From the NCBI GenBank assembly GCA_025800395.1, contig JAOXRU010000017.1, forward strand, positions 1-64,000: a stretch of DNA of 64,000 nucleotides. Direction: 5' to 3'. This stretch comes from Flavobacteriaceae bacterium (GTDB taxonomy: Bacteria > Bacteroidota > Bacteroidia > Flavobacteriales > Flavobacteriaceae). The notes below the pieces were generated by a model. It saw only the letters and a list, made by a program, of their open reading frames with translations, did no database searches and was not told the origin of the DNA. Below are positions 3,744 to 60,875 of this stretch, piece by piece (within the stretch, counting starts at the first letter, position 1; each line of letters begins with the position of its first letter). The position numbers and the translations under genes are program-made.

Positions 3744-3746
3744 AGC

Positions 3747-7508: not shown

Positions 7509-7548
7509 AAATCAAATTGATAGCAGCTGTATTATAAAAGGGAATAGC

Positions 7549-31618: not shown

Positions 31619-31693
31619 TTGATCTATTTATAATAAGGAATTTGTGAAATATGTTGCACGATTCTTGTATTATTGATCCACAAATTTTATTGC

Positions 31694-36112: not shown

Positions 36113-36144
36113 TTTGAATCAATAATTGGAGGAAATTATCTTTG
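36113..36144 (+). promoter_or_regulatory. Bacteroidota-type promoter of the OmpA gene
   Basis: TTTG at 36113-36116, a 20-base spacer, then TATCTTTG at 36137-36144 match the Bacteroidota consensus well. The start site would be near 36151, giving a leader of about 26 bases before the ATG at 36177. With only 22 bases between the OmpA stop and the first MBOAT gene, this promoter might also feed the start of the polysaccharide locus. Confidence 0.7.
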
Positions 36145-36176: not shown

Positions 36177-37325
36177 ATGAAATTTCAAAACTTTCTTGTT
36201 TTGTGTCTGCTGATTAGCGCAAATGCCATGGCACAAAACGGTATCCCCAAACATGTATTAACAAAAGATAGTATAATAAATAGCTATACCAAATTAGGCT
36301 TAGGTGTGCATATAATAGATCGGTCTGGAAAAGACTTGGGTTTTTACGATAGTGACCAGTCATGGCACATTAATGGTTCTTCCTGGCGAGCGTCCTATGG
36401 AAAATACTATGACAACAACTTTGGTTTGGAGGTCGTAGGTAGCTTCGGTAGATTTACTGGAGTCAATGATGCATTGAACGACAAAACCTTTTTTGGATTG
36501 GATCTTCATGGGATATATAATTTGCAAGAGGATTTGGGTCTGAATCAATGGTTGGATCCTTTTTTAGGTCTTGGTGCAGGTTATTCTGAATTTGACAAAA
36601 TCGCCAAATTTTCTCTAAATACGACAGTTGGATTGCGATTGTGGATTACCCAAAGAATTGGAGTGGAATTGAGTACCAATGGTAAATGGGCAATAAATAA
36701 GGATGCTACCAACTATATGCAGCATGCGGCAGGTTTGGTGTATCGTTTTAAAATGAAAAAATCCTTGTCGGTCGAAGCGGAGGAGGCATTAGAAAAATTA
36801 AAAATCTTCGAAAAAGAGAACCGACGTAAGCATGATTCTATATCAGATTCTGAACGATTAGAAGCCTTAGAAGATATAGCGGAAGACGCGGCGGTTTTGG
36901 CGGCTGAAAAAGAAAAGGAAAAAGAAGCCTTGGCTAAAGAAACTAGAAGGAAAGATGAAATTAAAAAATCCATTACAAATAGCGGACTGGTGTATTTTGA
37001 GTTTGATGGAATCGAGCTCGATAAGGCTTCCAAAGATGTATTAGAGAAGCTTGCTAGGGTGCTGCAGAATCACCCGGAAGTTCAGTTGGGTGTTTTTGCC
37101 TATGCCGACAGTAGAGGTACCGATGCATACAATTTGGCTCTTAGCCAAAAGAGAGCACAGAAAGTAGCAAACTATTTGACGCAGCTTGGGATACCTTCGA
37201 ATAGAATCACTGCAAAAGGTAAAGGAGAAACAAGTATATTGAACGAATGTACAAATTCAGTAGCCTGCTCGGCTGCTGCACATAAAATTAACAGAAGAAC
37301 AGAATTTGTGGTGATACAATTCTAA
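36177..37325 (+). CDS. OmpA family outer membrane protein
   Basis: A 382-residue protein: signal peptide ending 'ANAMAQ', an N-terminal beta-barrel-like domain of about 170 residues, a charged coiled-coil linker rich in Glu, Lys and Ala (about residues 200-265), and a C-terminal OmpA peptidoglycan-binding domain. That domain includes 'YFEFDGIELDKASKDVLE', 'AYADSRGTDAYNLALSQKRA' and 'NRRTEFVV', with the Asp and Arg expected to bind diaminopimelate. It probably ties the outer membrane to the wall. It has a good promoter and ends 22 bases before the first MBOAT gene. Confidence 0.9.
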   Translation: MKFQNFLVLCLLISANAMAQNGIPKHVLTKDSIINSYTKLGLGVHIIDRSGKDLGFYDSDQSWHINGSSWRASYGKYYDNNFGLEVVGSFGRFTGVNDALNDKTFFGLDLHGIYNLQEDLGLNQWLDPFLGLGAGYSEFDKIAKFSLNTTVGLRLWITQRIGVELSTNGKWAINKDATNYMQHAAGLVYRFKMKKSLSVEAEEALEKLKIFEKENRRKHDSISDSERLEALEDIAEDAAVLAAEKEKEKEALAKETRRKDEIKKSITNSGLVYFEFDGIELDKASKDVLEKLARVLQNHPEVQLGVFAYADSRGTDAYNLALSQKRAQKVANYLTQLGIPSNRITAKGKGETSILNECTNSVACSAAAHKINRRTEFVVIQF

Positions 37326-37347: not shown

Positions 37348-38781
37348 ATGTTATTTAATTCCCTTGAATTTGCAATTTTTCTACCCTTGGTATTTGGGTT
37401 ATATTGGTTTTTGTTGCAAGGGCATCTGCGTATGCAGAATTTCCTGATTGTATTGGCGAGTTACCTTTTCTACGGATATTGGGACTGGCGTTTTCTGGGG
37501 CTGATTATTTTTAGTACAGTACTCGATTATACGGTTGGCGTGCTATTGGATAAAACGGAGGATACCTATAGGCGCAAACTATTGCTTTGGGTGAGTATAG
37601 TGGTAAATTTAGGTTTTTTAGGTTTCTTTAAATATTATAATTTCTTTGTAAATAGCTTTATTGATGCTTTTGCAAGTTTAGGAATTCATTTGGAAGGTAG
37701 TACCCTTAAGATCATTTTACCAGTAGGTATTAGCTTTTATACTTTTCAAACCTTATCCTATACAATAGATGTCTATCGCAAACAATTGAAACCAACCAAA
37801 GATTTTGTGGCATTCGCGGCTTTTGTTAGTTTCTTTCCACAGCTGGTAGCTGGCCCTATAGAACGCGCATCTCATTTGTTACCTCAATTTTATGTGAAAA
37901 GAAAATTTGATGTTACAAAAGCTAAAGACGGATTGCGTCAAATCTTGTGGGGCTTGTTTAAAAAAATAGTCATTGCAGATAATTTTGCTAAATACGCCAA
38001 TATCATTTTCAATGATTCGGATTCGTATAATGGTGCAACCTTATGGTTGGGAGTGATTTGTTTTGGTTTTCAAATTTATGGTGACTTTAGTGGCTATTCG
38101 GATATTGCTATCGGAACTGCGCGTTTGTTTGGTTTTGATCTTAAACAAAACTTTGCCTTCCCGTATTTCTCTAGAGATATAGCAGAATTTTGGAGAAGAT
38201 GGCATATTTCCTTATCGAGTTGGTTTAGAGATTATCTTTATATCCCATTGGGAGGAAGCCGTGGAGGACTCAATATGAAAATCCGCAATACCTTCATCAT
38301 TTTTGTGGTAAGTGGGTTTTGGCATGGTGCCAATTGGACCTATTTGATATGGGGGGCTTTGAATGCCATCTACTTTTTGCCCCTACTATTGTCAAAAACA
38401 AATCGTGTGCATACCGATTTGGTTGCCGAAGGCAAATGGTTTCCTTCTTGGAAAGAAATAGGAAAAATTTTGTGGACCAATATATTGGTGTTATTTGCTT
38501 GGGCATTTTTTAGAGCCAAAAATATGGAACATGCTTTACAATATACTTCGGATATGTTTTTGAAAATCGGTGAAGGCTTACCAGAAATTTGGCCACAAAC
38601 GGAGTTTATACTAGGAATTTCATTCTTGTTGGTGGAATGGATGGGAAGAAGTAGCAAATTTGGAATAGAGGCCATAGTGAGATTTCCTGCTTGGATGCGA
38701 TGGAGTTTCTATTTGGGAATCATTGTATTACTATTTGTATTTACAGGAGAAGAACAACAGTTTATATATTTTCAATTTTAG
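37348..38781 (+). CDS. MBOAT family O-acyltransferase 1 (AlgI-like)
   Basis: A 477-residue integral membrane protein with about ten hydrophobic segments. AlgI-type MBOAT proteins carry acyl groups, usually acetyl, across the inner membrane to a periplasmic transferase. Family marks are 'QLVAGPIERASHLLPQ', 'GDFSGYSDIAIG', 'RRWHISLSSWFRDYLYIPLGG' and 'GFWHGANWT' with the predicted catalytic His326. It begins 'MLFNSLEF' and ends 'FIYFQF', as do the other two MBOAT proteins of this locus. The gene for its presumed SGNH partner starts 4 bases after the stop. The acceptor is probably the polysaccharide made by genes downstream. Confidence 0.9.
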   Translation: MLFNSLEFAIFLPLVFGLYWFLLQGHLRMQNFLIVLASYLFYGYWDWRFLGLIIFSTVLDYTVGVLLDKTEDTYRRKLLLWVSIVVNLGFLGFFKYYNFFVNSFIDAFASLGIHLEGSTLKIILPVGISFYTFQTLSYTIDVYRKQLKPTKDFVAFAAFVSFFPQLVAGPIERASHLLPQFYVKRKFDVTKAKDGLRQILWGLFKKIVIADNFAKYANIIFNDSDSYNGATLWLGVICFGFQIYGDFSGYSDIAIGTARLFGFDLKQNFAFPYFSRDIAEFWRRWHISLSSWFRDYLYIPLGGSRGGLNMKIRNTFIIFVVSGFWHGANWTYLIWGALNAIYFLPLLLSKTNRVHTDLVAEGKWFPSWKEIGKILWTNILVLFAWAFFRAKNMEHALQYTSDMFLKIGEGLPEIWPQTEFILGISFLLVEWMGRSSKFGIEAIVRFPAWMRWSFYLGIIVLLFVFTGEEQQFIYFQF

Positions 38782-38784
38782 GTT

Positions 38785-39711
38785 ATGTCAGGATTTTTAA
38801 AGCGCCTTGTCGCATTTGTAATAGTGGGATTGCTTTTAGGGGAGATCGTATCTAGGGTTCTAGTGCTCAATTCGGATGTACCCAGAAGAGAAATAAACCA
38901 ATATGGTATCCAGTCTTATATCCCCAATCAGAAAGGAGATTTCAAGGGAGGTGCGCACCAATGGCAAATCAATCAGACTGGTTGGCCAGGACCGATGCCT
39001 GATAGTTTTGATAATGTGGTTACCATATTGGGAGATAGTTTTATAGAAAACTTTATGAGCCCAGATTCGCATCATCAAAATAGTTTGATGAAAAAGGAAT
39101 TTCCCAATTATAATTTTTATGAAGCTGCACGCTCTGGGGTGTCTTTTATAGAGGCAATGGAGATAAGTAAACAATTGGATAGCTTGCAACCGAAAATGCA
39201 AATCATTCACTTGCACGACTCTGATTTGAGAGAGAGTATAGTGCAAATACAAGCCCTGTCGGATATCACTCAAGTTGATTTGGAATCACAAAAAATTGTA
39301 TTCGGTGAGATGAAACGACCTGGTTTAAAATTGGTTTTGTATAATTGGAAATTTGCATACTATTTGTTTAATCGTTTTTCTCCCAGTTTTATTCGGATGA
39401 TACATCCCAAACCAAAAGAAGCAGAGAATAAAAAAGTATCAGACCCCGATTTTTTACCACAGTATGAAGCTTTGTTTCGCTATACCAAATCCAATTATAA
39501 AATAGCGGATAAACTCTTGGTGTTTCGACCCGAATCGGATTCAAAAATTGTGGATTTGGCAACAAGAATGGGCTTTCGTACCATATGGTTGGATTCCAAA
39601 GGAGACCCATCATGGACATTTGACTACGATCACCATTGGACTAGTTTTGGGCATGAAAGAGTAGCATTGCAGCTTTCTAATGAAATAAAAAAGAGAAAGT
39701 TATTAAACTAA
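38785..39711 (+). CDS. SGNH-type acyltransferase/esterase 1, partner of MBOAT 1
   Basis: A 308-residue protein with one N-terminal membrane anchor ('LVAFVIVGLLLGEIV') and a periplasmic SGNH-like domain. Block I is 'ILGDSFIENF' with the nucleophile predicted at Ser85. The catalytic Asp-His pair lies near the C-terminus in 'DHHWTSFGHER', resembling the D-x-x-H block of AlgJ/AlgX and PatB-like proteins. In such systems the MBOAT protein supplies the acetyl group and the SGNH protein attaches it to the glycan. It overlaps no gene but follows MBOAT 1 by 3 bases. A 116-base gap with a promoter candidate separates it from the second pair. Confidence 0.78.
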   Translation: MSGFLKRLVAFVIVGLLLGEIVSRVLVLNSDVPRREINQYGIQSYIPNQKGDFKGGAHQWQINQTGWPGPMPDSFDNVVTILGDSFIENFMSPDSHHQNSLMKKEFPNYNFYEAARSGVSFIEAMEISKQLDSLQPKMQIIHLHDSDLRESIVQIQALSDITQVDLESQKIVFGEMKRPGLKLVLYNWKFAYYLFNRFSPSFIRMIHPKPKEAENKKVSDPDFLPQYEALFRYTKSNYKIADKLLVFRPESDSKIVDLATRMGFRTIWLDSKGDPSWTFDYDHHWTSFGHERVALQLSNEIKKRKLLN

Positions 39712-39754
39712 ATATAGAATTTTATCTAAACTAAAAAACAATTGATCGAATTTA

Positions 39755-39786
39755 GTTGCTGTAGCTTCTGCAAGCAGATAGATTTG
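39755..39786 (+). promoter_or_regulatory. Candidate promoter before MBOAT 2
   Basis: GTTG at 39755-39758, a 20-base spacer and TAGATTTG at 39779-39786 resemble the Bacteroidota promoter, with an imperfect -33 box. The leader to the ATG at 39828 would be about 35 bases. A second TAnnTTTG (TAAATTTG) at 39795-39802 lacks a -33 box. This would let the second MBOAT/SGNH pair be expressed separately from the first. Confidence 0.45.
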
Positions 39787-39827
39787 TAAGGAACTAAATT
39801 TGAATTTAACCGATTAAACTACTTTTC

Positions 39828-41282
39828 ATGACCTTTAATAGTATAGAATTTTTTATATTTCTACCTGTAGTATTTGTCTTGTATTGGTTTGTTTTTCAAA
39901 GAAAACTTATCGCACAAAACACTTTGGTGTTGGTGGCAAGTTACTTTTTCTACGGTTTGTGGGATTGGCGGTTTCTTTTTTTGATTTTAGCCAGTACTAT
40001 AGTAGATTACTTTGTAGGAATAGAGTTAAAGAAACACGAAGATGACCGCAGGCGTCAAAAGTTTTGGCTTTGGTTGAGTATCCTTTTCAATGTATCTGTT
40101 TTAGGCTTTTTTAAGTATTATAATTTCTTTGCAGATTCGTTTATCGATATGATACATTTGTTTGGATACGATCTGAGCAAAAGCTGGACATTGAATATTA
40201 TCCTACCTGTTGGTATTTCATTTTATACCTTCCAGACGATGTCGTATTCTTTGGATATCTATTATAAACGTCTAGAACCATGCAAGGACTTTTTGTCTTT
40301 TGCTGCCTTCGTTTCCTTTTTTCCCCAATTGGTAGCAGGGCCTATTGAAAGAGCATCTAATTTGTTGCCACAGATTACCAAAACAAGAACTTTCGATCCT
40401 TTACAGTTTAAACAAGGATTGAAACTCATCTTATGGGGATTGTTTAAGAAAATGGTAATCGCAGATGGTATTGCGCCAATGGTGGATGATATTTTTGCCA
40501 ATTATAACGATTATTCGGCTACAACACTGATATTGGGAGCTACTTTATTTAGTTTTCAGGTTTATGGAGATTTTAGTGGTTATAGTGATATAGCAATTGG
40601 AACTTCTAAATTATTTGGTTTTGAATTGATGTCAAATTTCAAATTTCCAAATTTTGCAAGAAATGTTGCCGAATATTGGAATCGTTGGCATATTTCGCTA
40701 TCTACTTGGTGGCGACATTATTTGTATATCCCTTTGGGAGGGTCTCGAGAGGGAAAATGGAAAGCAGTTCGCAATATCACTATCATTTTCTTGGTAAGTG
40801 GATTTTGGCATGGAGCCAACTGGACCTTTATCTTTTGGGGTGCTTTTCATGCCGTAGTGTTTATTCCTGTATTTTTGATGGGGAGAAATACCATTTATAA
40901 AAATAATATCGTTGGAGAAAACACTTTGTTTCCTTCTTTTATAGAAATACTGCAATTGTTTTGGACTTTTAGTTTGATTACTTTTTCGCGTATCTTCTTT
41001 AGATCTCCATCACTAACCGCCTCTTTTGAGTTTATAGAAAAAATGTTTACCGATTTGCGTTATGAGCCCTATGTACACCCTATGGGATACCGTATGGCCG
41101 ACTACTTTATTTTATTGGCATTGTTTGTATTGTATGAGTACCGTATTCGGAAAGATGAACGCAATCCGTTTAAATTCAAATCCAGAGTGGTTCGTTTCTT
41201 TTTGTACACCATTATCATTTTTGCTATCTTATTGTTTTTTGATAGTGGAATCGATCGTTCATTTATTTACTTCCAATTCTAA
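39828..41282 (+). CDS. MBOAT family O-acyltransferase 2 (AlgI-like)
   Basis: A 484-residue multi-pass membrane protein closely resembling MBOAT 1: it starts 'MTFNSIEF', carries 'QLVAGPIERASNLLPQ', 'GDFSGYSDIAIG', 'NRWHISLSTWWRHYLYIPLGG' and 'GFWHGANWT' (predicted catalytic His328), and ends 'FIYFQF'. The differences from MBOAT 1 are spread along the whole length, so this is not a very recent duplicate. It has its own SGNH partner 5 bases downstream, which suggests a different acceptor position or acyl donor. A promoter candidate lies in the gap before it. Confidence 0.9.
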   Translation: MTFNSIEFFIFLPVVFVLYWFVFQRKLIAQNTLVLVASYFFYGLWDWRFLFLILASTIVDYFVGIELKKHEDDRRRQKFWLWLSILFNVSVLGFFKYYNFFADSFIDMIHLFGYDLSKSWTLNIILPVGISFYTFQTMSYSLDIYYKRLEPCKDFLSFAAFVSFFPQLVAGPIERASNLLPQITKTRTFDPLQFKQGLKLILWGLFKKMVIADGIAPMVDDIFANYNDYSATTLILGATLFSFQVYGDFSGYSDIAIGTSKLFGFELMSNFKFPNFARNVAEYWNRWHISLSTWWRHYLYIPLGGSREGKWKAVRNITIIFLVSGFWHGANWTFIFWGAFHAVVFIPVFLMGRNTIYKNNIVGENTLFPSFIEILQLFWTFSLITFSRIFFRSPSLTASFEFIEKMFTDLRYEPYVHPMGYRMADYFILLALFVLYEYRIRKDERNPFKFKSRVVRFFLYTIIIFAILLFFDSGIDRSFIYFQF

Positions 41283-41287
41283 TCGTT

Positions 41288-42229
41288 ATGTTTCAGATAT
41301 TAAAAAAAATGGTTTTGTATGCAGTACTTATATTTTTGGTACTGGAAGCTTTGGTACGTATATTTCATTTGTATGATGACGAACCCACTTGGTATTTAGA
41401 CAAAAAAGACAACACCTATAAATGGGTACCAGGACAAGAAGGATATGCCGTATATGGTAATAGAAGACAGAGTTTTACCAAATATCATATCAATACAGAA
41501 GGCTATAACTCCTATCGAGATTTTGCGCCAACAGAGGACAAAGTGGAAGTAGCTATAATGGGAGATAGTTTTATAGAAGGATTTCATCAAAATTACTTCA
41601 ATTCCATTGGTAAAAAAATAGAGAGTAAATTGCCGCATTTGGAAGTATATGAGTATGGACATTCTTCATTTGATTTTGCAGATCAAGCGTATTTGGTATA
41701 CAGCAATAAGGAAGTGTTTAAAAAAGTAGACCATTTGATATTTGAAATAAAATTTAGAAATGATTTTCAACGCAGCGAATACAGTGTTGCTCCACGTACG
41801 GTAGTATTCCCACTATTGCGCAAGTCCAAGTTGCTAAAATACATGTTGGATATTGGTATGGTAGATCCGGTGAAGAAAACCCTGAGAAAACTCAATATAG
41901 TAGGACAGGTACCTTATTCTCCTCCAAAAGATATCCAAGATTTGGATAGCTTATATTTGTCTAACTTTAAGAAATTGCACAAGATGTACGAAATCGATAA
42001 AAGTAAATCTTGCTTTTTGCTCGATTCTCGACAGACTGCCCAGATCTTTTTGGACTATTTAGATGAAGAAGGTATCGCCTATATCGATTACGGAAAGGTA
42101 TTTGAGGAAAATAAAAAACGACCAACTACCTTGGTATACGATAGACATTGGAACAATTACGGAAGACAATTGGTTGCCAATGAGATTTATAAATACTTGG
42201 AAGCTTGTCAATGTGCATATTCTAAGTAA
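41288..42229 (+). CDS. SGNH-type acyltransferase/esterase 2, partner of MBOAT 2
   Basis: A 313-residue protein with one N-terminal membrane segment ('MVLYAVLIFLVLEALV') and a periplasmic SGNH-like domain. 'IMGDSFIEGF' gives the nucleophile Ser94; 'YDRHWNNYGRQ' near the C-terminus provides the Asp-His pair. It is related to the first SGNH protein in layout and in both motif blocks, though the middle parts differ strongly. It probably completes acyl transfer begun by MBOAT 2. The GNAT gene begins 35 bases later on the same strand. Confidence 0.78.
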   Translation: MFQILKKMVLYAVLIFLVLEALVRIFHLYDDEPTWYLDKKDNTYKWVPGQEGYAVYGNRRQSFTKYHINTEGYNSYRDFAPTEDKVEVAIMGDSFIEGFHQNYFNSIGKKIESKLPHLEVYEYGHSSFDFADQAYLVYSNKEVFKKVDHLIFEIKFRNDFQRSEYSVAPRTVVFPLLRKSKLLKYMLDIGMVDPVKKTLRKLNIVGQVPYSPPKDIQDLDSLYLSNFKKLHKMYEIDKSKSCFLLDSRQTAQIFLDYLDEEGIAYIDYGKVFEENKKRPTTLVYDRHWNNYGRQLVANEIYKYLEACQCAYSK

Positions 42230-42264
42230 ACCTAGTTTAAAGAGAACCACTACTAAGAAAAAAA

Positions 42265-43509
42265 ATGAAACCCATGTATCCCTTTATTGAAAAAGAGTTT
42301 ACCAACACCTGGATGCAATATTTTGCACAACAAAAAAAAGCACATTTTTTTGAGTCCATATCCCCATTGGGATTTATAAAAAGCCGCATCCCTTTTTTGT
42401 ATTATAATATTGGCAAAAACATCACCAATGGGTTGTATTACGAACTAAATTCAGAGGCTAAAGATTACAAAAACAAGGTGTTTTTGATGTACGATATTAT
42501 TCGATATGCGGGCATACCCCATTCGGATATGGATAACAAAGATTTTGGAATTAAAAATATAGATCAATACAAAGGTTATTTAACACGTTTAACTGATTAT
42601 GCGGATTATGAGGCATTTGTGAATGACCATTATTCCCGTTCGACCCGTATGAAATTGCGAAAGAACCTGAGGAAGTTGGAAACCAATTTTCCGATAGAAT
42701 ATGAGGAATTGTATGGCCCTGTAGACGAAAACAAATACCACAAGGTGATGGATCGTCTGTATTATTTGATTGAAAATAGATTCGACGATTTGGGTGTAGA
42801 CAATGATATATTGCATAAAAGGGACTATTATCGCGTACTATTTTTAAAGATGGTGCAGGAAAAAAAAGCCATTATTCATTTGATAAAGCACGGCGATCGA
42901 CCAATTTCGATATGTCTTTCTTTTTTGACAAAAGATGTCATGTTTTTTGCAATCAACACATTTGATACCAATTATAGAAGATACAATTTGGGACATTTGT
43001 CGATTATCAATTTGATGAAATGGTGTTTTAACAATGACATCCAAGTGTTGGACTATTCCAAGGGAACTTACGAGTACAAATTGCGATGGAGAAACGAAGA
43101 ATACTGTTTTGAAAATCATATCGTATACGACAAGCACTCTATTGGTAGTACCATAGTGGCCAATGTTTTGTATTATTATTACCGCTTTAAGCAATATTTG
43201 CGCGATTTAAAAATAAATGAAACCTATGTAAAGTTGAGATATCGTTTGTTTCACCTCAATAGAAAACCAAAAGAAGTGAAACGCTTTGCTTTTGAAAAGA
43301 TGTCTGATGCGCAAATTGACAAACAATATTATAAGGAGTTGGAGCAAAATAGCGAAGCTTTTCAGGCGATGCAAGCTACTATCAATGATTTGATATATAG
43401 CAAGCCACAACCAGTGAAGGAGGTAACACTCATGAAACATCAGGAGAAAGAAGAATATTTGGTCTTGGGAAAGGATTTGCAAACCAAAGTAATGGTGGAC
43501 TCGCAATAG
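42265..43509 (+). CDS. GNAT/FemAB-like acyltransferase 1 (Acetyltransf_6 type)
   Basis: A 414-residue soluble protein. The central and C-terminal part fits the GNAT-like Acetyltransf_6 (BioF2-like) fold often found in polysaccharide loci. 'RRYNLGHLSIINLMKW' is the acyl-CoA binding helix region and 'DYSKGTYEYKLRW' follows. It is a paralogue of the protein at 44570, sharing 'NIGKNITNG', 'QYKGYL', 'DYSKGTY' and 'FENH' blocks in the same order. The two flank a deacetylase gene. They may acylate amino sugars or transfer an amino acid; neither donor nor acceptor can be told from the sequence. Confidence 0.68.
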   Translation: MKPMYPFIEKEFTNTWMQYFAQQKKAHFFESISPLGFIKSRIPFLYYNIGKNITNGLYYELNSEAKDYKNKVFLMYDIIRYAGIPHSDMDNKDFGIKNIDQYKGYLTRLTDYADYEAFVNDHYSRSTRMKLRKNLRKLETNFPIEYEELYGPVDENKYHKVMDRLYYLIENRFDDLGVDNDILHKRDYYRVLFLKMVQEKKAIIHLIKHGDRPISICLSFLTKDVMFFAINTFDTNYRRYNLGHLSIINLMKWCFNNDIQVLDYSKGTYEYKLRWRNEEYCFENHIVYDKHSIGSTIVANVLYYYYRFKQYLRDLKINETYVKLRYRLFHLNRKPKEVKRFAFEKMSDAQIDKQYYKELEQNSEAFQAMQATINDLIYSKPQPVKEVTLMKHQEKEEYLVLGKDLQTKVMVDSQ

Positions 43510-43533
43510 GAAAATAAAAACGAAATATCAATA

Positions 43534-44508
43534 ATGAAAGAAAATGAAGGTGGCAGTTTTGTGATCTCACTCGATTTTGAGTTGATGTGGGGTGTACGAG
43601 ATAAGCGGTGTATTGCTAGTTATGGAAAAGCTCTGGAAAAAGTACAAAAAATAGTTCCAGAGACCTTGGCATTATTCGAAAACTATGGTATTCATGCTAC
43701 TTGGGCAACGGTAGGCATGTTGTTTTGTAAAGACAAACAATCTTTGTTGGCTAGTTTTCCCAAAGAAAAACCAAGCTATGACGATCACAACTTGTCGCCA
43801 TATGCTACTGCAGAAGCATTGGATGATTCTCAAGCACCCTATTATTTTGCACCAAATTTGCTGGAACAGATCAAACAAATAGCAGGACAGGAGATAGGTA
43901 CCCATACCTATTCCCATTATTATTGTATGGAAAGCGGTCAAACAAAAGACCAATTTGAACAAGATCTAGACAGTGCCATAGCTGTAGCCCAGCATTGTCA
44001 AAATCTCCATACCCATTCTATAGTATTCCCAAGAAATCAGGTCAATACAGAATATTTACAAAGCTGTGCAAAAAGAGGGTTGGTCGCTTATAGAGGAACA
44101 GAGAAATCTTGGTTTAATAGTGCAGAAAGTGATGGAGCAACCAGCCTGTGGAAAAAAATCAATCGTACTTTGGATTGTTACATCAATATAGGTGGACATC
44201 ATACATATGAAACCCATGAAATGAGATCGGATGGAATACACAATATAGCATCTAGTCGATTTTTACGACCATATAATCAGAAATTTAGTTTTTTTGAGCC
44301 CCTGAAAGTACAAAGAATCAAAAAAAGCATGTTATTTGCAGCCAGAAATAATCAATTGTTTCATCTGTGGTGGCATCCCCATAATTTTGGAAACAACACT
44401 GAGAAAAATTTTGAAAACTTAACAAATATTTTACAGTATTATAGGTATTTGCAGTCTAAGTTTGGAATGCAAAGCAAAACTATGCAAGAGGCTGCCAATT
44501 CTTTGTAG
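43534..44508 (+). CDS. NodB-type polysaccharide deacetylase
   Basis: A 324-residue soluble protein of the NodB (carbohydrate esterase 4-like) homology group. 'VISLDFELMWG' stands in place of the T-F-D-D motif and carries the metal-binding Asp, and 'IGTHTYSHYYC' provides the H-x-x-x-H metal ligands. 'VFPRNQ' corresponds to the motif 3 Arg. No signal peptide is visible, so it may act on a cytosolic lipid-linked or nucleotide-linked sugar before export. Between two GNAT-type acyltransferases it could open an amino group that one of them then re-acylates. Substrate is inferred. Confidence 0.8.
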   Translation: MKENEGGSFVISLDFELMWGVRDKRCIASYGKALEKVQKIVPETLALFENYGIHATWATVGMLFCKDKQSLLASFPKEKPSYDDHNLSPYATAEALDDSQAPYYFAPNLLEQIKQIAGQEIGTHTYSHYYCMESGQTKDQFEQDLDSAIAVAQHCQNLHTHSIVFPRNQVNTEYLQSCAKRGLVAYRGTEKSWFNSAESDGATSLWKKINRTLDCYINIGGHHTYETHEMRSDGIHNIASSRFLRPYNQKFSFFEPLKVQRIKKSMLFAARNNQLFHLWWHPHNFGNNTEKNFENLTNILQYYRYLQSKFGMQSKTMQEAANSL

Positions 44509-44569
44509 GGAGGAAAAAAGCAGCTAAGTATAGCAAATAATTAACATAAAAACCAGATCCTTTCACCTA

Positions 44570-45850
44570 GTGCAAGGAACAAAAGTTTCAGGATTGACTA
44601 AAATCAATATTAAACCAAACATACGTAGGCATCCATTTTATAGAAAGGAATTTATAAAAGTATGGAGCGACTATTTTTTAAAAAAGAACCAAGAACCATT
44701 GTCATTTAGATCTTTGGGGCCTTTGCACTTTTTTAAACATTCGAAATTATCCTTGTATACCAATATCGGGAAAAATATTACTAATGGAAATATCTATCAG
44801 ATAGATCCAGAGGCGACGGACTATAGCGGGAAGAGTTTTCTGTTGTATGATATACCTTCCTATCTTCAAAAAGAACCAGAGCGCAAACACCAGCGTTTGG
44901 CTATTAAAAAAATACCGCAATATAAAGGGTATTTATCCGATTTGGATGGATTCGATAGTCTGGATGCTTTTATGCAACACAAGTTTTCGGCCAAAAGCCG
45001 AAACAATATTCGTAAATGGCGAAAAAAACTCTATAATAATTTTGAGATTGACTTCAAGGTTTATAGGCAAGAAGTAGACGAAACAACCTACCATAAGATG
45101 TTTGATGCCTTACTTGATCTTATACAAAAACGTTGGGGCGAATTGGGCATGCAAAACGATATAGTGGTAAACAAAGCTTATTATAGAGACTTGGGTTATA
45201 GCATGATTAAAGAAGGAAGCGCAGCCCTCTATGTTTTATCTGACAATGGTAAACCAATCGCTATATCGTTGAGCTTTTTATCCGAAACGGAATTGTTTTT
45301 TGCAATCACGACTTTTGATACAGATTTTCGTAGATATAATTTAGGTCATATGCTGATTATGCATATGTTGGAATGGTGTATAGAAAACAATATAAGAATT
45401 TTTGATTATTCAAAAGGCACCTATGACTATAAAATTCGCTGGGCAACCAAAGAATATGTGTTTGAAAACCACCTGATTTATGATACCAAGAAAATACGAT
45501 CGATATTGGTTTCCAGAGTTCTTTTTTATATGTTTTCTTTTAAACAGTTTTTGAGAGAGAAGGAGGTGAATTTGTTGTTTTCCCGACTGAAATACTATCT
45601 CAAAAATGAAAAACCGAAAAAGGAGCAAATCCTTACCCAAAAAATGGATGAAGAATGGATGCTAAAACTGCAACTCGAAGAAATTCCGTACACGCATAGA
45701 GAATATGATTTGTTACGTGGTTTGATTTTTGACCTCATTTTTTCCAAGCCACAGGCAGCTGTAAATGTAAAATTATATCGCCAAAAAGACAAGTTAGATT
45801 CCTATGTTATTTCTGGAAAAGATTTGTGTGTGAGCGTTCAAATTCAATAG
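44570..45850 (+). CDS. GNAT/FemAB-like acyltransferase 2 (Acetyltransf_6 type)
   Basis: A 426-residue paralogue of the protein at 42265. Shared blocks include 'NIGKNITNG', 'QYKGYL', 'RRYNLGHMLIMHMLEW', 'DYSKGTYDYKIRW' and 'YVFENHLIYD'. The track start is a GTG at 44570; a TTG at 44594 is an alternative, and alignment with the paralogue suggests conserved sequence begins only at 'RRHPFYRKEF', near residue 19. No ATG is available near there. The C-terminal ends of both proteins carry a stretch 'FSKPQ' or 'YSKPQ' followed by Val/Leu-rich sequence. Function is as uncertain as for its relative. Confidence 0.66.
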   Translation: MQGTKVSGLTKINIKPNIRRHPFYRKEFIKVWSDYFLKKNQEPLSFRSLGPLHFFKHSKLSLYTNIGKNITNGNIYQIDPEATDYSGKSFLLYDIPSYLQKEPERKHQRLAIKKIPQYKGYLSDLDGFDSLDAFMQHKFSAKSRNNIRKWRKKLYNNFEIDFKVYRQEVDETTYHKMFDALLDLIQKRWGELGMQNDIVVNKAYYRDLGYSMIKEGSAALYVLSDNGKPIAISLSFLSETELFFAITTFDTDFRRYNLGHMLIMHMLEWCIENNIRIFDYSKGTYDYKIRWATKEYVFENHLIYDTKKIRSILVSRVLFYMFSFKQFLREKEVNLLFSRLKYYLKNEKPKKEQILTQKMDEEWMLKLQLEEIPYTHREYDLLRGLIFDLIFSKPQAAVNVKLYRQKDKLDSYVISGKDLCVSVQIQ

Positions 45851-46018
45851 AAGTTGTAGGACGAAAAAAATACGATTTAGTCGTTTTTATTGTAAGGATA
45901 CGTGGGGAATATATAAGTTTGTTAGAGAAGGGATTATGATTCTTATGAATTTCAGTAACAACTTTTGAATCATTTTCTTTATCAATGAACTAGTGTAACT
46001 ACTTAAATTAGGGATACC

Positions 46019-47161
46019 ATGAGTTTGCGTTACCCAATGCGTTTGGAAATTTTTAAAAGAAAATCTTCACAAAAATTTATACCCGAAATAGATGCATTGC
46101 GCTTTTTGGCAATTATGCCTGTGATGATAGTACATTTTAGTGGCTCTTTTTTGGAATATAATAGCTTTTTTGAAGTTGAGGCAATGCAAAATCATTGGTT
46201 GCGCCAACTTTTGTTACAAGGGAACTACGGAGTACATTTGTTTTTTGCTATTAGTGGCTTTATACTTACTTTGCCATTTATTGGAAATGAAGAGGACTTG
46301 TCTAGTGTTTCGTGGAAGAAGTATTTTTTGAGAAGGCTTATACGCATCGAGCCACCTTATATTATTGCTATTAGCATATTTTTGGTAGTACATATTGTGT
46401 TGCAGCAGCAAGAACTTATGTTCTTAATAAAAAGTTATTTGTCTTCTTTTTTCTATATACACAATATTGTGTATGACCATGGCTCTTATATATTACCTGT
46501 TGCATGGAGTTTGGAAATAGAGGTGCAATTTTATTTACTCATGCCGTTATTGTTATTGTTGCTCAAATGGAGGAAAGCTTTTGTTTGGCGTTTGTTGATT
46601 TATGCTTTCCTATTTTACAGTTGTTTGAATATTGAACTCTTTCCATTTTTGGAACTCAATGATATTATGATCTTCTTTTTGGGGGGAATAGTAGCGGCAG
46701 ATGTGTACAAAAATGTACAATTACCAAAGAGTGGGATTTGGGATATTGTATTTCTAGTTGCAATTACAGCGTTTTTTATGATAAATATCAAATGGTTGCG
46801 ATTTTTCACCTTGTTTTTAACCATAACTTCCGTTTTTCACTTGGTACACCTCAAACGTATTTTGCAAAACTCGGTTATAACGACCATAGGAGGCATGTGT
46901 TATAGTTTATATTTGCTGCATTATCCGCTATATCATTTATTTTCCAAAGCTTTTGGGAATAGCCTCACAATCTTTGGTGTATTTGAATGGGATTTGCTTC
47001 TACAAACCTTAATTTTTGTGCCATTTTCTATTTTTTGTATTTCTTTTTATTTTCTTTGGGTAGAAAAACCATTTATGATATGGAGTCAAAGAATGAGCAA
47101 AAAACTTGGATCAAAATCTCAGAAGTCAAAATATAGGGCTAGGACATTAAAAACGATGTAA
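46019..47161 (+). CDS. Acyltransferase 3 family membrane protein (OafA/YrhL-like) A
   Basis: A 380-residue membrane protein with about ten transmembrane segments. The start of the domain, 'IDALRFLAIMPVMIVHFSG', carries the conserved Arg and His used for acyl transfer. 'LLRRLIRIEPPYIIAI' type sequence (here 'FLRRLIRIEPPYI') and 'AWSLEIEVQFYLLMPL' complete the family pattern. OafA-type proteins O-acetylate O-antigens and capsules without a separate SGNH protein; no SGNH domain is fused here. The gene is preceded by a 168-base gap and followed by 579 bases without a gene before the convergent third MBOAT/SGNH pair. Confidence 0.88.
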   Translation: MSLRYPMRLEIFKRKSSQKFIPEIDALRFLAIMPVMIVHFSGSFLEYNSFFEVEAMQNHWLRQLLLQGNYGVHLFFAISGFILTLPFIGNEEDLSSVSWKKYFLRRLIRIEPPYIIAISIFLVVHIVLQQQELMFLIKSYLSSFFYIHNIVYDHGSYILPVAWSLEIEVQFYLLMPLLLLLLKWRKAFVWRLLIYAFLFYSCLNIELFPFLELNDIMIFFLGGIVAADVYKNVQLPKSGIWDIVFLVAITAFFMINIKWLRFFTLFLTITSVFHLVHLKRILQNSVITTIGGMCYSLYLLHYPLYHLFSKAFGNSLTIFGVFEWDLLLQTLIFVPFSIFCISFYFLWVEKPFMIWSQRMSKKLGSKSQKSKYRARTLKTM

Positions 47162-47740
47162 TAAGCTACTAGCATATCCAAAATGCTGAAGTGTGCATTA
47201 TGCTGGTTTATATATAGATGGCGTTTTTTGAGCTTACCAATAACAATCACATAGTAAATATTAATACCATTTCTATTCTGATATTCCCTTAAAAGAAATA
47301 GATGATTTTTTTTCTGAAATAGAAAGGCAAAAGGCTGTTTATTGGGGTTTTTAAGCTAGAAATTATATAAGTACATGAATGCTTATAGTTTTTGGATAAT
47401 TGTGCTTGTTTAGTTTGAAGAATCAATCTCTTTCTTTTTTGGTCTATAACAACAAGTGGAGGAGTTACAATTTAGGAATCTCACTCATTGTTCGATAGGA
47501 GACGAATAATTTTGATTGTACTTTCTTTTATTTGCTTATAAAAATAGGGCTCTAATTGTGATCTTCAGTAGGTCTTACCGATTAGTTTTTTTATGTTAAA
47601 TGCGGATATAATATTTTTTCCAACTAAACTGCAGCAGTATCGGTATATTTGTCCAATTAGTAAAAAAAATGTTAGGAATAAGAAATTGTATATACAATAC
47701 CGCTATAAGTTTTTACATTGGAAGTTTTGTAGGTACCATT
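47162..47740. other. Gene-free stretch between convergent genes
   Basis: 579 AT-rich bases separate the OafA-like gene from the convergent SGNH 3 gene. The only structure I can support is the dispersed repeat copy B at 47266-47303. Short ORFs here (for example 47593-47859) have no recognisable content and overlap SGNH 3 antisense. No RNA gene or clear terminator was identified. Confidence 0.6.
47266..47303 (+). repeat. Dispersed intergenic repeat, copy B
   Basis: 38 bases beginning ACCATTTCTATT and ending AAGAAATAGAT. The reverse complement of 9117-9153 matches it at 34 of 37 aligned positions plus one single-base gap. Both copies lie between convergent genes and are far from each other, which suggests a family of short intergenic repeats in this genome. 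Confidence 0.6.
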
Positions 47741-48685
47741 TTATGGTTCTAAAAACATTTCCAAATCCTTTTGGAGAAGCTTCGAGAAAATCTGCGCTCC
47801 TTCATCAGACAGATGGGTGTAATCCTTCCACAATTGGTGTTGATTTATGGTATCTATAGCGTCTATAGCATCTATATAATTTCGATATTCTATGTCCAAC
47901 GAAGCAAAAAGAGCCGTAGTTTGTGCCTGAACATTGGGGTCAACTTTGCTCAACGATGGGGATGTGAAAAACACCAACTTACTGCCAAGACTCTTGGCTT
48001 TTCCTTGTATATTTTTGATAATGGAGACCATATTTGGATTGGGAATAGGGTTTTCTTGGATTCCCATATTGTAAAGCAAGTCGTTTTCCTTTCGCATTTT
48101 AGAAAATATTTCTATTTGCGTTGCGGTAGGATGTATAGGCTCGTAGCCAACGGTATCGAAGTTTGTCTGCTTGAATAAGGCGTTTTTTACAATAGTAAAA
48201 ACCAAGCCATTGTATGCATATCCTTTGAAGAGTTCGGAGAGCCTGTAGTCTTCTTTGTAATGTTCTTTTATGTAATGTTCAATAGCAGGCGAAACATCGG
48301 CTTTGAATAGTAGTGACAAAGCATCGTCTCCAGTATAATTTGGGTTGTACAAACTGTTGTGGTCTATATGTACCAAAAGAAGTGGGTTGTTGGTTTTGAG
48401 GGTTTGAATAAGCGCATCCGAATACGCCAAATTGGTGCCGTCTACACCAATATTAAAACTGTTTTTGGAAGAAAGCTGTGATGGATTTACGTGATGCGAG
48501 GCTCTAGAATTTCCAAATATGAGGATTTGAGCAGCATCTTTTCTTGCAAAAAAAGCATTTACCTTACCCACACCATTACCAGTAAATACATTTTTTTCAA
48601 TCTGTTGTATGCCATAAAAGGCAATACGATCTACCAGCATAAAACAAATTAAAATTCCAAGTGCAAGAGAAATTGACTTTTTCAT
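47741..48685 (-). CDS. SGNH-type protein 3, partner of MBOAT 3 (GNS variant)
   Basis: A 314-residue protein with an N-terminal membrane anchor ('SLALGILICFMLV') and an SGNH/DltD-like periplasmic domain. Block I reads 'IFGNSRASHH': Ser60 is retained but the Asp of G-D-S is Asn. 'LWKDYTHLSDEGAQ' near the C-terminus carries the catalytic Asp-x-x-His. It differs from SGNH 1 and 2 in both blocks, placing it in another subgroup. It is encoded 5 bases downstream of MBOAT 3 on the minus strand. Probable role: transfer of the acyl group brought by MBOAT 3 to a glycan. Confidence 0.72.
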   Translation of the reverse strand: MKKSISLALGILICFMLVDRIAFYGIQQIEKNVFTGNGVGKVNAFFARKDAAQILIFGNSRASHHVNPSQLSSKNSFNIGVDGTNLAYSDALIQTLKTNNPLLLVHIDHNSLYNPNYTGDDALSLLFKADVSPAIEHYIKEHYKEDYRLSELFKGYAYNGLVFTIVKNALFKQTNFDTVGYEPIHPTATQIEIFSKMRKENDLLYNMGIQENPIPNPNMVSIIKNIQGKAKSLGSKLVFFTSPSLSKVDPNVQAQTTALFASLDIEYRNYIDAIDAIDTINQHQLWKDYTHLSDEGAQIFSKLLQKDLEMFLEP

Positions 48686-48690
48686 AGGTT

Positions 48691-50088
48691 TTAAAATTGA
48701 AAATAGATGAAATTAGATGCGCTCGAATAGAACAATAAGGTGTTGATAATTATGAAAGTGACCAATCCAATATATAAAGGAGCTTTTAAAGTACTTCCAA
48801 ATTGTTCTAGTTGATGGTCTCTTTTAAAAAGAAAGATGTCAAAGCTAATGGCTAAAATAAGCCCATACACGGTAGTAGCAAATATGGTGGTGTCTCCCAA
48901 GTATGGCATGGCGTATCCATTGCTAAATAACTTGCCGAGTATGAGGCCGCTATCTTCTAAAGATAAGGCTCGGAAAAATATCCAAATGAGGGTAACCATT
49001 GTAAATACCACTACATTGTTTAAAAACTTATAGCGATTGGGAATCCAACCAAATCGTTTTTCTATCCCCAAAAGTATCCCATGTATGGCGCCCCAAATCA
49101 CAAAATTCCATGAACTACCGTGCCATAGACCTCCTAGTAGCATGGTGAGAAATAGATTGCGATATTGCATAAGGATGCCATTTCTATTGCCGCCAAGTGG
49201 AATATAAAGATAGTCGCGTAGCCATGAAGAAAGCGAAATATGCCATCTTCTCCAAAATTCGGTGATGGAGGATGAAAAATAGGGGAGATTGAAATTTCTT
49301 TTAAAATCAAAACCGAGTAATTTGGCTGTTCCGATGGCAATATCCGAATAGCCGCTAAAATCGAAGTAAATTTGGAAGCTATACAGAAAAACTGCCATGG
49401 CTATGGTAGAACTATTGTGAATCTCTGGATTATTGTAAATACTATCTACGAGCGAGCCAATAGAGTCGGCAACAACAACTTTTCTAAAAAATCCAACTAC
49501 AATTTGAAACAAACCATTTTGAAATCTTTCGTGCGACCACCTCCGTTTGTGCGCTATCTGTGGAATCAAATTGGAAGCTCTTTCTATAGGCCCAGCTACC
49601 AACTGAGGAAACAAGCTTACAAATGTGGCGAAAACCACAAAGTCATTGGTGGGTTTCAAATTACCTCTATAAATATCTATAGAATAAGACATAGTTTGAA
49701 AGGTGAAAAACGAGATACCAACAGGCAAAATGATCTGCAATGTAGAATGGGACATCTCGTAGCCAAACATATTCCACAAATCGATCCAAGAATCTATAAA
49801 GAAATTGAAGTACTTGAATATTGCTAATAATCCTAAATTCGCAAAAATGCTGACTTGCAGATAGCGTTTTTTATGTTTTTCGGATTGGTGTATTGCCAAG
49901 CCTAGGTAATAATCTAAGATACTAGAAAAAGCAATAAGGAATAAGAAACGCCAGTCCCACCAGCCATAAAATACATAGCTTGCAATGAGCAACAATACAT
50001 TCTGAATTTTTATACTTTTATGAAAACTCCAATATAGTACAAAAACTAATGGAAAGAATATAAGGAATACGGTGCTATTAAATAACAT
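48691..50088 (-). CDS. MBOAT family O-acyltransferase 3 (AlgI-like)
   Basis: A multi-pass membrane protein of 465 residues from the ATG at 50088. The track starts two codons earlier, but MBOAT 1 begins 'MLFNSLEF' and this one 'MLFNSTVF', so the second Met fits better. 'QLVAGPIERASNLIPQ', 'FDFSGYSDIAIG', 'RRWHISLSSWLRDYLYIPLGG' and 'LWHGSSWNFVIWG' (catalytic His) are present and it ends 'FIYFQF'. It and SGNH 3 are inverted relative to the rest of the locus, so this pair is transcribed separately from the divergent gap shared with the lyase gene. Confidence 0.9.
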   Translation of the reverse strand: MLFNSTVFLIFFPLVFVLYWSFHKSIKIQNVLLLIASYVFYGWWDWRFLFLIAFSSILDYYLGLAIHQSEKHKKRYLQVSIFANLGLLAIFKYFNFFIDSWIDLWNMFGYEMSHSTLQIILPVGISFFTFQTMSYSIDIYRGNLKPTNDFVVFATFVSLFPQLVAGPIERASNLIPQIAHKRRWSHERFQNGLFQIVVGFFRKVVVADSIGSLVDSIYNNPEIHNSSTIAMAVFLYSFQIYFDFSGYSDIAIGTAKLLGFDFKRNFNLPYFSSSITEFWRRWHISLSSWLRDYLYIPLGGNRNGILMQYRNLFLTMLLGGLWHGSSWNFVIWGAIHGILLGIEKRFGWIPNRYKFLNNVVVFTMVTLIWIFFRALSLEDSGLILGKLFSNGYAMPYLGDTTIFATTVYGLILAISFDIFLFKRDHQLEQFGSTLKAPLYIGLVTFIIINTLLFYSSASNFIYFQF

Positions 50089-50618
50089 GAACAATTAAGT
50101 TGTTTGGAGGGCTAAAGATATTTCGATTTAGAGAATATTCTTCAACTATCCAGTCAAATTCCAAAATTTTAGTTGAAATACCATATTGGGAAGGCATGAG
50201 CGGGCTATTTGCATCGGAGAAATGCGCCAGTATTCGTTATAAGGAAAATAGCTAATTTGCTTTGTTTTAGTCTTTAAAAAGCGTTTGTTCTCTATAAAAA
50301 CTATTTAAAATCCTATTTTTCTGGTATAAAAACGGTAAAAATATGGATTCTAGGGAAAAGTAATACCAAATAGGAATCTGGAAGGGAATAGAATGGAATT
50401 CAAAATCCGTGTTTCTAATTAGAATTTTTGTATTTTTACTGTAAATAGTGCATTTCATCGAATATATTGTTAAAAAACTGCAAAAAAACTCGTTGAAGGA
50501 ATCTATTTCTTCGTTTAATGACGTAAATGAGATAAATTGTTTAAAAAAAATCGTTTTGAAAAAAACCTCAACAATCATAAAACAGAAAAAAAATCACATT
50601 AAACTTAACCTCATTCTT
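50089..50618. other. Divergent intergenic region between MBOAT 3 and the lyase gene
   Basis: 530 AT-rich bases with no convincing gene. It must contain the divergent promoters for MBOAT 3/SGNH 3 and for the pectate-lyase-like lipoprotein, but I found no full TTTG-N19/20-TAnnTTTG match. The track ORF 50448-52178 extends into it by 57 codons; these are Lys- and Ile-rich, precede the signal peptide and are probably not translated. A weak resemblance to the dispersed repeat is seen at 50361-50394. Confidence 0.5.
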
Positions 50619-52178
50619 ATGTCTTATCACACTATCAACAAAACCAGATTTATGGGCTTATTTTTCCTAGCTAGTTTATTATTAACTTTTGCTTGCGCCA
50701 AAGAAGAAATCATCGTCGACCAAGAAGATCCAGATGGAATTGAAAATCCAACGGATGAAACAGGAGATGGAGATCAAAGCGATGGCAACCCAAATACTGA
50801 TGACACAGTTTCTACCGAACTAAAAGCTTTTCCCTTGGCCGAAGGTGCTGCCTACAATGTAACCGGAGGAAGAGGCGGAAAAGTAATCCATGTGACTAAT
50901 CTCAACGATTCAGGACCTGGTTCATTTCGAGAAGCACTTTTTACCAAAGGTCCTCGTACTATCGTTTTTGATGTTTCGGGAACTATCGAAATGCAGGATG
51001 GTATTTATGTTTATGGTCCGGATTATGGTAATGTTACTATAGCCGGACAAACAGCTCCCAAAGGAGGAATCACCTTAAAAGGTCATTATACTTACTTTGA
51101 ACGTGTCGACAACATTATCATGCGATACATTCGTTTTAGAATGGATAGAGATAATGGAGGATTAGCCTTATCTACCTTGGTTACCTCTAGTTGTAAGGAT
51201 GTGATTTTCGATCACCTCTCTATTTCTTATGGTAGAGATGAGAACCTTACGATATGGGACAATGCAAAGACCAAAGGAGGAAATCATACGGTGCAGTATT
51301 GTATTGTAGCGGATGGAAAAAACAATATCGTATTGGGTGCTAGCGACACCAATGGACGCTCCAATTATGCAGGAGATGTAACTTTGGCAAAAAACCTAAT
51401 TAGTTATGGTCACCGTACGCCTAATACAAGTGGTAATGCACGATTTGATGTATATAACAACTTTGTATACAATTGGCAGTTTCGACTGTCGGCTGTAGGA
51501 GATGCCAATAAAATAAACCATATTAACAATTTTTATCGAATGGGAAAGGTTACCGAGCAATTTATTAGTGGTGACGGTAGCAATTCTCTCGATTATTTCA
51601 ACAATATCGTATTGCCATTCAACAATGGTAAAATTTATACCGAAGGGAATGTTTATGAAGGTATGGCATTTATGAATAAGGATAATTGGAATGCATGGCG
51701 AATTTTTGGAAATACCTCTAAACAACTGGACGAGAGTATAGGTAGGTCGCAGAGTCCTTTGGCAGGATTGGGGATTTCAGACATCTGGGATACCGATCGG
51801 GTGAGTACGGAGTTGCTCAAAGACATAGGGGCCAACAAATTTTTGAATGAAGATGGAAGTGTAGAAACCTATGTAGATAGCAACGACGAACAATATTTGG
51901 AAGATGCATTAAATAGCAATGATCGTATTTCGGTAAATCAAGTAGGATATTACCAATTGCGCTGGTATGCCAACAATCCTTATTTACAGCTACCATTCCC
52001 AAACTTACCTACCAAAACTCGCCCAGATGGCTATGATTCGGATCAGGATGGAATGCCAGATACTTGGGAAAAAGCAATGGGACTCAATCCAAATATCAAA
52101 GATCACAATGGAGATAAAGATGGCGATGGATATACTAACTTGGAAGAATTTATAAATCTAGTGGACAAACAAAATTAA
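50619..52178 (+). CDS. Pectate-lyase-like (PL1-type beta-helix) lipoprotein
   Basis: 519 residues from the ATG at 50619, which places a basic n-region and lipobox 'TFAC' near the start. An acidic Asp/Glu/Asn linker of about 45 residues follows. The catalytic part, from 'FPLAEGAAYNVTGGRGG' and 'TNLNDSGPGSFREAL', is typical of Bacteroidota pectate lyase superfamily proteins with a right-handed beta-helix. The C-terminus carries Asp-rich calcium-binding repeats ('DSDQDGMPDTWEKAMGLNP', 'DKDGDGYTNLEEF') of the thrombospondin-3 or EF-hand kind. It would be a surface or periplasmic enzyme acting on a uronic-acid polymer. A strong terminator follows. Whether the target is the locus's own polymer is inference. 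Confidence 0.8.
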   Translation: MSYHTINKTRFMGLFFLASLLLTFACAKEEIIVDQEDPDGIENPTDETGDGDQSDGNPNTDDTVSTELKAFPLAEGAAYNVTGGRGGKVIHVTNLNDSGPGSFREALFTKGPRTIVFDVSGTIEMQDGIYVYGPDYGNVTIAGQTAPKGGITLKGHYTYFERVDNIIMRYIRFRMDRDNGGLALSTLVTSSCKDVIFDHLSISYGRDENLTIWDNAKTKGGNHTVQYCIVADGKNNIVLGASDTNGRSNYAGDVTLAKNLISYGHRTPNTSGNARFDVYNNFVYNWQFRLSAVGDANKINHINNFYRMGKVTEQFISGDGSNSLDYFNNIVLPFNNGKIYTEGNVYEGMAFMNKDNWNAWRIFGNTSKQLDESIGRSQSPLAGLGISDIWDTDRVSTELLKDIGANKFLNEDGSVETYVDSNDEQYLEDALNSNDRISVNQVGYYQLRWYANNPYLQLPFPNLPTKTRPDGYDSDQDGMPDTWEKAMGLNPNIKDHNGDKDGDGYTNLEEFINLVDKQN

Positions 52179-60573: not shown

Positions 60574-60584
60574 GTATTATTTAA

Positions 60585-60875
60585 ATGCAGCAATATTATA
60601 AATTTATTCAACCTAATTTTGAGTCGTGTGTTTCACAACAAAGGCATAGTTGCTTGTCTTCCTTGTGGCTTGCATATAGTGCCTTTATTTATTATTGTTT
60701 TTATAAGTTGTCATTTGCTGTAATAAATAAGTCGCATGTATCGATTATTATTCCCTTACCTATGGAATGCATTTCTTGGGCTCCAAGCAAGAAATTAAAA
60801 AGAGCAACAGCCATACCAGGTAATAGAAGACTTTGGAATGGATTACAATTTATAACCACAAAAAATAACTTCTGA
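60585..60875 (+). CDS. Short ORF between the two ATP-grasp genes, possible gene remnant
   Basis: A 96-codon ORF that fits exactly between its neighbours: it starts 11 bases after the first ATP-grasp gene and its TGA overlaps the ATG of the second (TGATG). I do not recognise the product. The first 60 residues include a short hydrophobic, Cys/Tyr-rich stretch ('FIYYCFYKLSFAVI'), the rest is basic. The spacing favours real translation or a former gene, while the composition looks little like a normal protein. It might be a decayed enzyme left from a longer gene. No family can be named. Confidence 0.3.
   Translation: MQQYYKFIQPNFESCVSQQRHSCLSSLWLAYSAFIYYCFYKLSFAVINKSHVSIIIPLPMECISWAPSKKLKRATAIPGNRRLWNGLQFITTKNNF

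Follow-up and report, generated by a model that had tools for sequence, protein, structure and literature searches.

Why would a bacterium carry, within a single polysaccharide locus, three separate pairs of genes coding each for an MBOAT protein and an SGNH partner? This arrangement is found in positions 1 to 64,000 of contig JAOXRU010000017.1 (hereafter the window), which belongs to a Flavobacteriaceae bacterium (GCA_025800395.1) with a draft genome of 4.17 Mb (667 contigs, 94.6% complete, 7.7% contamination). Pairs 1 and 2 lie in tandem on the forward strand: MBOAT1 (37348-38781, 477 aa, AlgI/PatA-like) lies 3 bases ahead of SGNH1 (38785-39711, 308 aa), and MBOAT2 (39828-41282, 484 aa) 5 bases ahead of SGNH2 (41288-42229, 313 aa). 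Pair 3 is located on the opposite strand, where 5 bases separate MBOAT3 (48691-50088, 465 aa) from SGNH3 (47741-48685, 314 aa). The coordinates and gaps match what the first-pass annotation had described, that is, three MBOAT genes with an SGNH gene 3 to 5 bases downstream of each. A search of the whole genome showed that MBOAT1 to MBOAT3 are its only MBOATs. Judging from their sequences, these are three complete, separate and apparently working O-acyltransferase pairs, stacked in one 13-kb stretch; so close a clustering is not a matter of chance. Taken singly, each machine belongs to a known kind, and it is the stacking of three of them in one locus that is unusual.

The three MBOAT proteins match the Pfam family PF03062 with 117, 99.6 and 110 bits, respectively, the cut-off being 27. 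They resemble DltB structures (E 2.5e-23); membership of DltB itself was rejected, their scores being 141, 141 and 159 bits versus 375 for the NCBIfam DltB equivalog cut-off. The catalytic His region is kept in all of them, as had been noticed earlier, with both the RWHISLS and the WHG motifs present (H286 in RWHISLS and H326 in FWHG of MBOAT1, H288 and H328 in MBOAT2, H283 and H323 in MBOAT3). The common FIYFQF end that had also been pointed out is indeed present at the very C-terminus of the three proteins (Y474, Y481 and Y462; DNA 38761-38778, 41262-41279 and 48694-48711), but it is not peculiar to this locus. It fits exactly the F-x-Y-x-x-F hexapeptide of PatA, which auto-acetylates the Tyr of this C-terminal motif and then acts as donor to PatB; the motif also occurs on DltX (PMC12148441). 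Among the MBOATs collected from relatives, 113 out of 114 end in F-x-Y-x-x-F, 96 of these being FIYFQF exactly. The single sequence lacking it is a copy cut by the end of its locus, and all 113 complete MBOATs have the motif. FIYFQF was therefore rejected as a signature of this locus: being the shuttle motif of the family, it is evidence of function, and not of a recent common origin of the three genes.

The SGNH label of the partner proteins rests on motif and on fold (models of SGNH1 and SGNH3), not on Pfam names. SGNH1, which has an N-terminal membrane anchor, and SGNH2 share the motif type GDS...DxHW (S85 and D282/H284 in SGNH1, S94 and D285/H287 in SGNH2), while SGNH3 is of the type G-x-S-R...WKDxTH (GNSR with S60, D288/H291). 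When each protein was aligned with its own relatives (families S1, S2 and S3), the Ser, Asp and His residues were invariant within every family. In the Pfam search, SGNH2 gave a sub-threshold match to ALGX (21.9 bits versus a cut-off of 26.5, E 1.6e-4) and SGNH1 and SGNH3 gave no match at all; an ALGX-type SGNH domain over the cut-off is present in none of the three. The good AlphaFold model of SGNH3 (pLDDT 88) matches SGNH folds, with modest scores, and is closest to DltD, followed by SGNH esterases and PatB. The weaker model of SGNH1 (pLDDT 71) matches TesA-like and GDSL enzymes of the SGNH fold, again with modest scores, and SGNH2 is tied to SGNH1 by sequence. Profile searches of the PDB with the three SGNH alignments yielded marginal matches only, none of them to PatB; among them is a weak alignment of the DxHW motif of SGNH1 with AlgX (E 0.036). 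At solid scores, families S1, S2 and S3 were detected in 8, about 40 and about 11, respectively, of 251 Flavobacteriaceae genomes. As SGNH1 and SGNH3 fall outside Pfam, they represent two presently unnamed partner families that recur across the Flavobacteriaceae.

Are the three pairs copies of one another? Pairwise identity is 48-56% among the MBOATs, and the SGNH proteins are at most 30% identical or not alignable. The pairs are thus old and distinct, and a recent tandem duplication was rejected. Decayed copies were likewise rejected, as every catalytic residue is intact in the MBOATs and in the SGNHs. The pairs are hence different, as had been claimed, and neither recent copies nor inactivated. 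The first-pass annotation had further considered that trees in which the pairs are mixed would speak against its interpretation. The pairs mostly co-diverge: in a tree built from 103 MBOATs, the label of the SGNH family changes 21 times versus 65.4 upon shuffling (none of 200 shuffles was as low), the MBOATs with S3 partners form one clade (starred on the tree), and MBOAT and SGNH distances correlate (Mantel r 0.75-0.85), with shared species history contributing to the correlation. Some mixing was nevertheless found. The 13 proteins of the SGNH1 type group in a single clade (support 100), and their MBOATs are of the MBOAT1 type in 11 cases and lie inside the MBOAT2 type in the other two (genomes G046 and G081). 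Forcing the MBOATs of SGNH1-type partners into one clade was rejected by the approximately unbiased (AU) test (p ~1e-4, with a quick tree and with the split of the group known before the test was chosen), and strict one-to-one co-evolution of the pairs was rejected for SGNH1 on the same grounds. The SGNH1 clade being spread over two MBOAT lineages, partners have been exchanged; in addition, the MBOAT1-type clade partners several other SGNH families. Pairs are thus inherited together as a rule, but an exchange of partners is possible. In one genome (G229, C1:1891027-1892511), a frameshift or a sequencing error has split an MBOAT2-type gene, located next to an SGNH1-type gene, into frames of 327 and 162 aa.

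A search of related genomes for the three-pair arrangement, which had been suggested together with the statement that one pair is usual, was run. One pair is indeed the usual case in most relatives, but two further loci with three pairs were found. In an uncultured Allomuricauda (locus L193), the order is BshA, OmpA, MBOAT1-SGNH1, MBOAT2-SGNH2, a deacetylase and then a third MBOAT-SGNH pair; in Aquimarina sp. AU474 (L187), three pairs are located within 13 kb. When the 79 relatives with full match lists were considered, only one (G019) had at least three MBOATs in a span of 15 kb, and it has six within 42 kb; two others (G006 and G031) had two MBOATs close together. The stacking of three pairs is rare but recurrent, and some multi-pair clustering recurs in polysaccharide loci of the Flavobacteriaceae. 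The locus of G019 (C4:180524-223127, L058-L060), in which a series of FemAB/GNAT-like genes lies among the six MBOAT-SGNH pairs, is the most extreme multi-pair locus seen. In two other genomes (G218, 3338927-3344991; G221, 674949-679710), an SGNH2-type pair and a distant SGNH3-type pair are convergent, like pairs 2 and 3 of the window. Neither a multi-pair MBOAT-SGNH locus of Bacteroidetes nor a locus with three such pairs was found described in the literature searched, which is not proof of absence.

To which polymer could these pairs be directed? The genes on their right side point to a Wzx/Wzy-type polysaccharide. Divergent from pair 3 there is a PL1-type lyase (50448-52178, forward strand, as are the five genes listed next; a possible start is the ATG at 50592), followed by an AT3 acyltransferase (52530-53618), a candidate TviC-like UDP-GlcNAcA 4-epimerase (53652-54644; 390 bits versus a cut-off of 760), a candidate TviB-like UDP-GlcNAc 6-dehydrogenase (54710-55999; 552 bits versus 592), a MurJ/Wzx-type flippase (56003-57325) and a Wzy/O-antigen ligase-type membrane protein, likely the polymerase (58404-59657). 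Glycosyltransferases and TupA-like ATP-grasp genes are also found on this side. Two of the latter adjoin each other at 59617-61819, perhaps for an amide-type linkage to the glycan. Further genes lie past the right end of the window: an initiating sugar-phosphate transferase, a DegT aminotransferase and another two of the GNAT/FemAB-like type. Beyond the locus, a Mutator-family transposase (15777-16847 of L057) lies at the contig end. The TviB/TviC-like enzymes, which belong to the enzyme families of TviB and TviC, suggest that the polymer would contain an aminouronate. In the PDB, the lyase matches PfPL1 (9buj, E 2.7e-22), which is pectin-active, and VexL (6fi2, E 1.2e-8). It has been reported that the substrate cleaved by VexL is the Vi polymer, which consists of N-acetylgalactosaminuronic acid (PMC11229556).

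Between pairs 2 and 3, and also on the forward strand, SGNH2 is followed by a FemAB/GNAT-like transferase (Acetyltransf_6, 42265-43509), a polysaccharide deacetylase-like gene (43534-44508) that also adjoins pair 2 in L193, a second FemAB/GNAT-like transferase (44570-45850) and another AT3 (Acyl_transf_3) acyltransferase without an SGNH domain (46019-47161). With those beyond the window, four FemAB/GNAT-like genes belong to this one locus (42265-45850 of the window and 6194-8554 of L057), perhaps to transfer aminoacyl or acyl groups to the glycan. The left edge of the locus is conserved and is marked by BshA (34401-35543) and an OmpA-like gene (36177-37325, forward strand) that ends 22 bases upstream of MBOAT1. 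An assembly chimera at this edge is unlikely, as the order BshA, short gene, OmpA-like gene and MBOAT region is repeated in G218, L193 and L273 (G001); in L193, OmpA and MBOAT1 are separated by a carbamoyltransferase, and in L273 the pair comes later and is reversed. A Bacteroidetes-type promoter pattern was matched 9 times versus 5.6 expected; the match at 36113-36144 is well placed before the OmpA-like gene, and is not significant. Further to the left, a fusion of GH3 (NagZ-like) and serine hydrolase (31673-34309) seems, by eye, to be without the usual KHFPGHGDT-like motif, and has a homologue in G218 (46% identical); a run of glycoside-hydrolase-like genes with a sugar transporter (291-9105) looks, again by eye, like a glucan-use cluster.

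The neighbours of each pair in other genomes were also recorded. Pair 3 is at most 3.1 kb from a PL1 lyase in at least 5 of 11 genomes, namely G000, G224, G173, G011 and G237, in all of which a TviB-like gene lies, in addition, within 10 kb; the neighbours of pair 3 are the same in G417 (L264). The lyase and the TviB-like gene themselves are no more than 15 kb apart in at least 19 genomes. Pair 1 adjoins relatives of the flippase, glycosyltransferase and Wzy genes of the window (39-48%) in four loci of Winogradskyella (L194, L202, L208 and L217), in two of which a relative of the AT3 gene of the window is also beside it. For the SGNH2 family, a TviB-like gene is found within 50 kb in at least 25 of 35 genomes. 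As the neighbours of pair 2 vary, its substrate is the least certain of the three.

We consider it probable that one polymer is decorated by all three pairs, and that the three SGNH partners give three acceptor specificities, by a PatAB-like chemistry. By homology with PatAB, each MBOAT would load the Tyr of its own FIYFQF from acetyl-CoA. On the periplasmic side, the acyl-Tyr of the hexapeptide would then be offered to the SGNH protein next to it, which is membrane-anchored; the Ser of this protein would take the acyl group and pass it on to one of the hydroxyls of the sugar polymer. The acyl group would probably be acetyl, and the acceptor is most likely the product of this capsule/exopolysaccharide locus, a polymer probably containing an N-acetyl-aminouronate. 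The three distantly related SGNHs most likely correspond to three acceptor choices (different sugar residues or hydroxyls); gene context and divergence together make a single polymer modified at different positions the most likely outcome. Pairs 1 and 2, which run in the same direction behind the OmpA-like gene, may be co-transcribed, and pair 3 is probably controlled apart. Several findings weigh against this proposal: the claim of one polymer rests on gene context; many of the loci in which pair 2 is found have another gene content (FemAB/AMP-binding/Bac_transf modules), and the pair could serve another glycan; the TviB and TviC matches fall short of the NCBIfam equivalog cut-offs; the lyase is nearer to the pectin-active PL1 than to VexL; and the exchange of partners means that an MBOAT does not strictly dictate its SGNH.

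It is conceivable that the locus is a hot spot in which polysaccharide genes gather, and that this alone explains the proximity of the pairs, with pair 2 serving a widespread core envelope polysaccharide and pairs 1 and 3 a variable, Vi-like polymer. Consistent with this, SGNH2 is the commonest of the families (about 40 of the 251 genomes against 8 for SGNH1) and its pair borders gene sets unlike those of the window, often without pairs 1 or 3. Nevertheless, the genome has no other MBOAT, pairs 1 and 2 form a tandem that recurs in L193, and pair 2 is found in the same region as a TviB-like gene in most genomes; we consider the use of different glycans rather unlikely. The first-pass annotation had proposed a glycan acylated at several positions or with different acyl groups. 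Whereas several positions are the most economical reading of three distinct, intact pairs in a polysaccharide locus, no supporting evidence was obtained for different acyl groups (acetyl, propionyl, succinyl or aminoacyl, for example). That each pair adds its own would agree with there being three separate MBOAT lineages, 48-56% identical, and with the Dlt system, in which MBOATs can use other acyl donors (PMC12148441), but the motifs are the same in all the MBOATs, none of the genes beside the pairs in the window was recognised as a dedicated acyl-carrier or adenylation gene, and the exchange of partners between MBOAT lineages suggests a common donor, all of which renders the idea improbable. 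Even less credit is given to a single duplicated activity, kept as spares that differ only in their time of expression. Pair 3, on the other strand and with its own upstream region, could be separately controlled, but SGNHs at most 30% identical, belonging to three families with different motifs, are not recent copies, and in other genera each of the families is conserved separately.

Decoration of one polymer at several sites remains our preferred explanation. An SGNH family has changed its MBOAT lineage while the shuttle hexapeptide stayed nearly constant, and we therefore predict that it is the SGNH, not the MBOAT, that sets the position. As a tentative extension, the system may be modular: interchangeable MBOATs would supply acyl-Tyr through a common FIYFQF plug to swappable SGNHs, each choosing a hydroxyl, and stacked pairs (three here, six in G019) would write a multi-site pattern on one aminouronate polymer and tune how it is cleaved by the lyase next to pair 3. 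For acceptor choice by MBOAT-SGNH pairs, this genome constitutes a natural experiment: it has three pairs and no more, all in a single locus, and two of these are orthologues of the tandem in another genus.

How does this locus compare with known systems? With PatA/PatB, which O-acetylates the peptidoglycan of Gram-negative bacteria, it shares the MBOAT and SGNH gene pair, the MBOAT His, the membrane-anchored SGNH with Ser-Asp-His and the C-terminal F-x-Y-x-x-F shuttle (FIYANF in N. gonorrhoeae). It differs in having three pairs in a capsule/exopolysaccharide locus, in SGNH proteins without a sequence match to PatB (SGNH3 matches it weakly, by fold only) and in a substrate that, by context, would not be peptidoglycan. 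More than one MBOAT-SGNH pair takes part in the O-acetylation of one polysaccharide in Bacillus anthracis, where PatA1/PatB1 and PatA2/PatB2 act on the secondary cell-wall polysaccharide (PMC7759979); these are two pairs in a Gram-positive organism with another polymer, as opposed to three pairs with three SGNH families. The alginate system AlgI/AlgJ/AlgX/AlgF resembles the locus in its AlgI-like MBOAT, in the weak similarity of the SGNH1 DxHW motif to AlgX and in the combination of a uronic-acid polymer locus with a polymer lyase, but it has one MBOAT, two SGNH proteins and AlgF, whereas here each of three MBOATs has one SGNH, and neither AlgF nor a synthase was recognised. The DltB/DltX/DltD system for D-alanylation of teichoic acid has a similar MBOAT, a shuttle Tyr motif and, in DltD, the protein closest to the SGNH3 model; unlike in Dlt, where the shuttle is on a microprotein, it is fused here to MBOATs that score far under the DltB cut-off, in a Gram-negative bacterium. 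Lastly, as in the Vi antigen locus, candidate TviB/TviC-like enzymes, a PL1 lyase and O-acylation genes are combined in one locus. Production of Vi uses an ABC-transporter route, and its acetylation is due to TviD (PMC9597891), whereas the locus described here has MurJ/Wzx-Wzy type genes and MBOAT-SGNH pairs.

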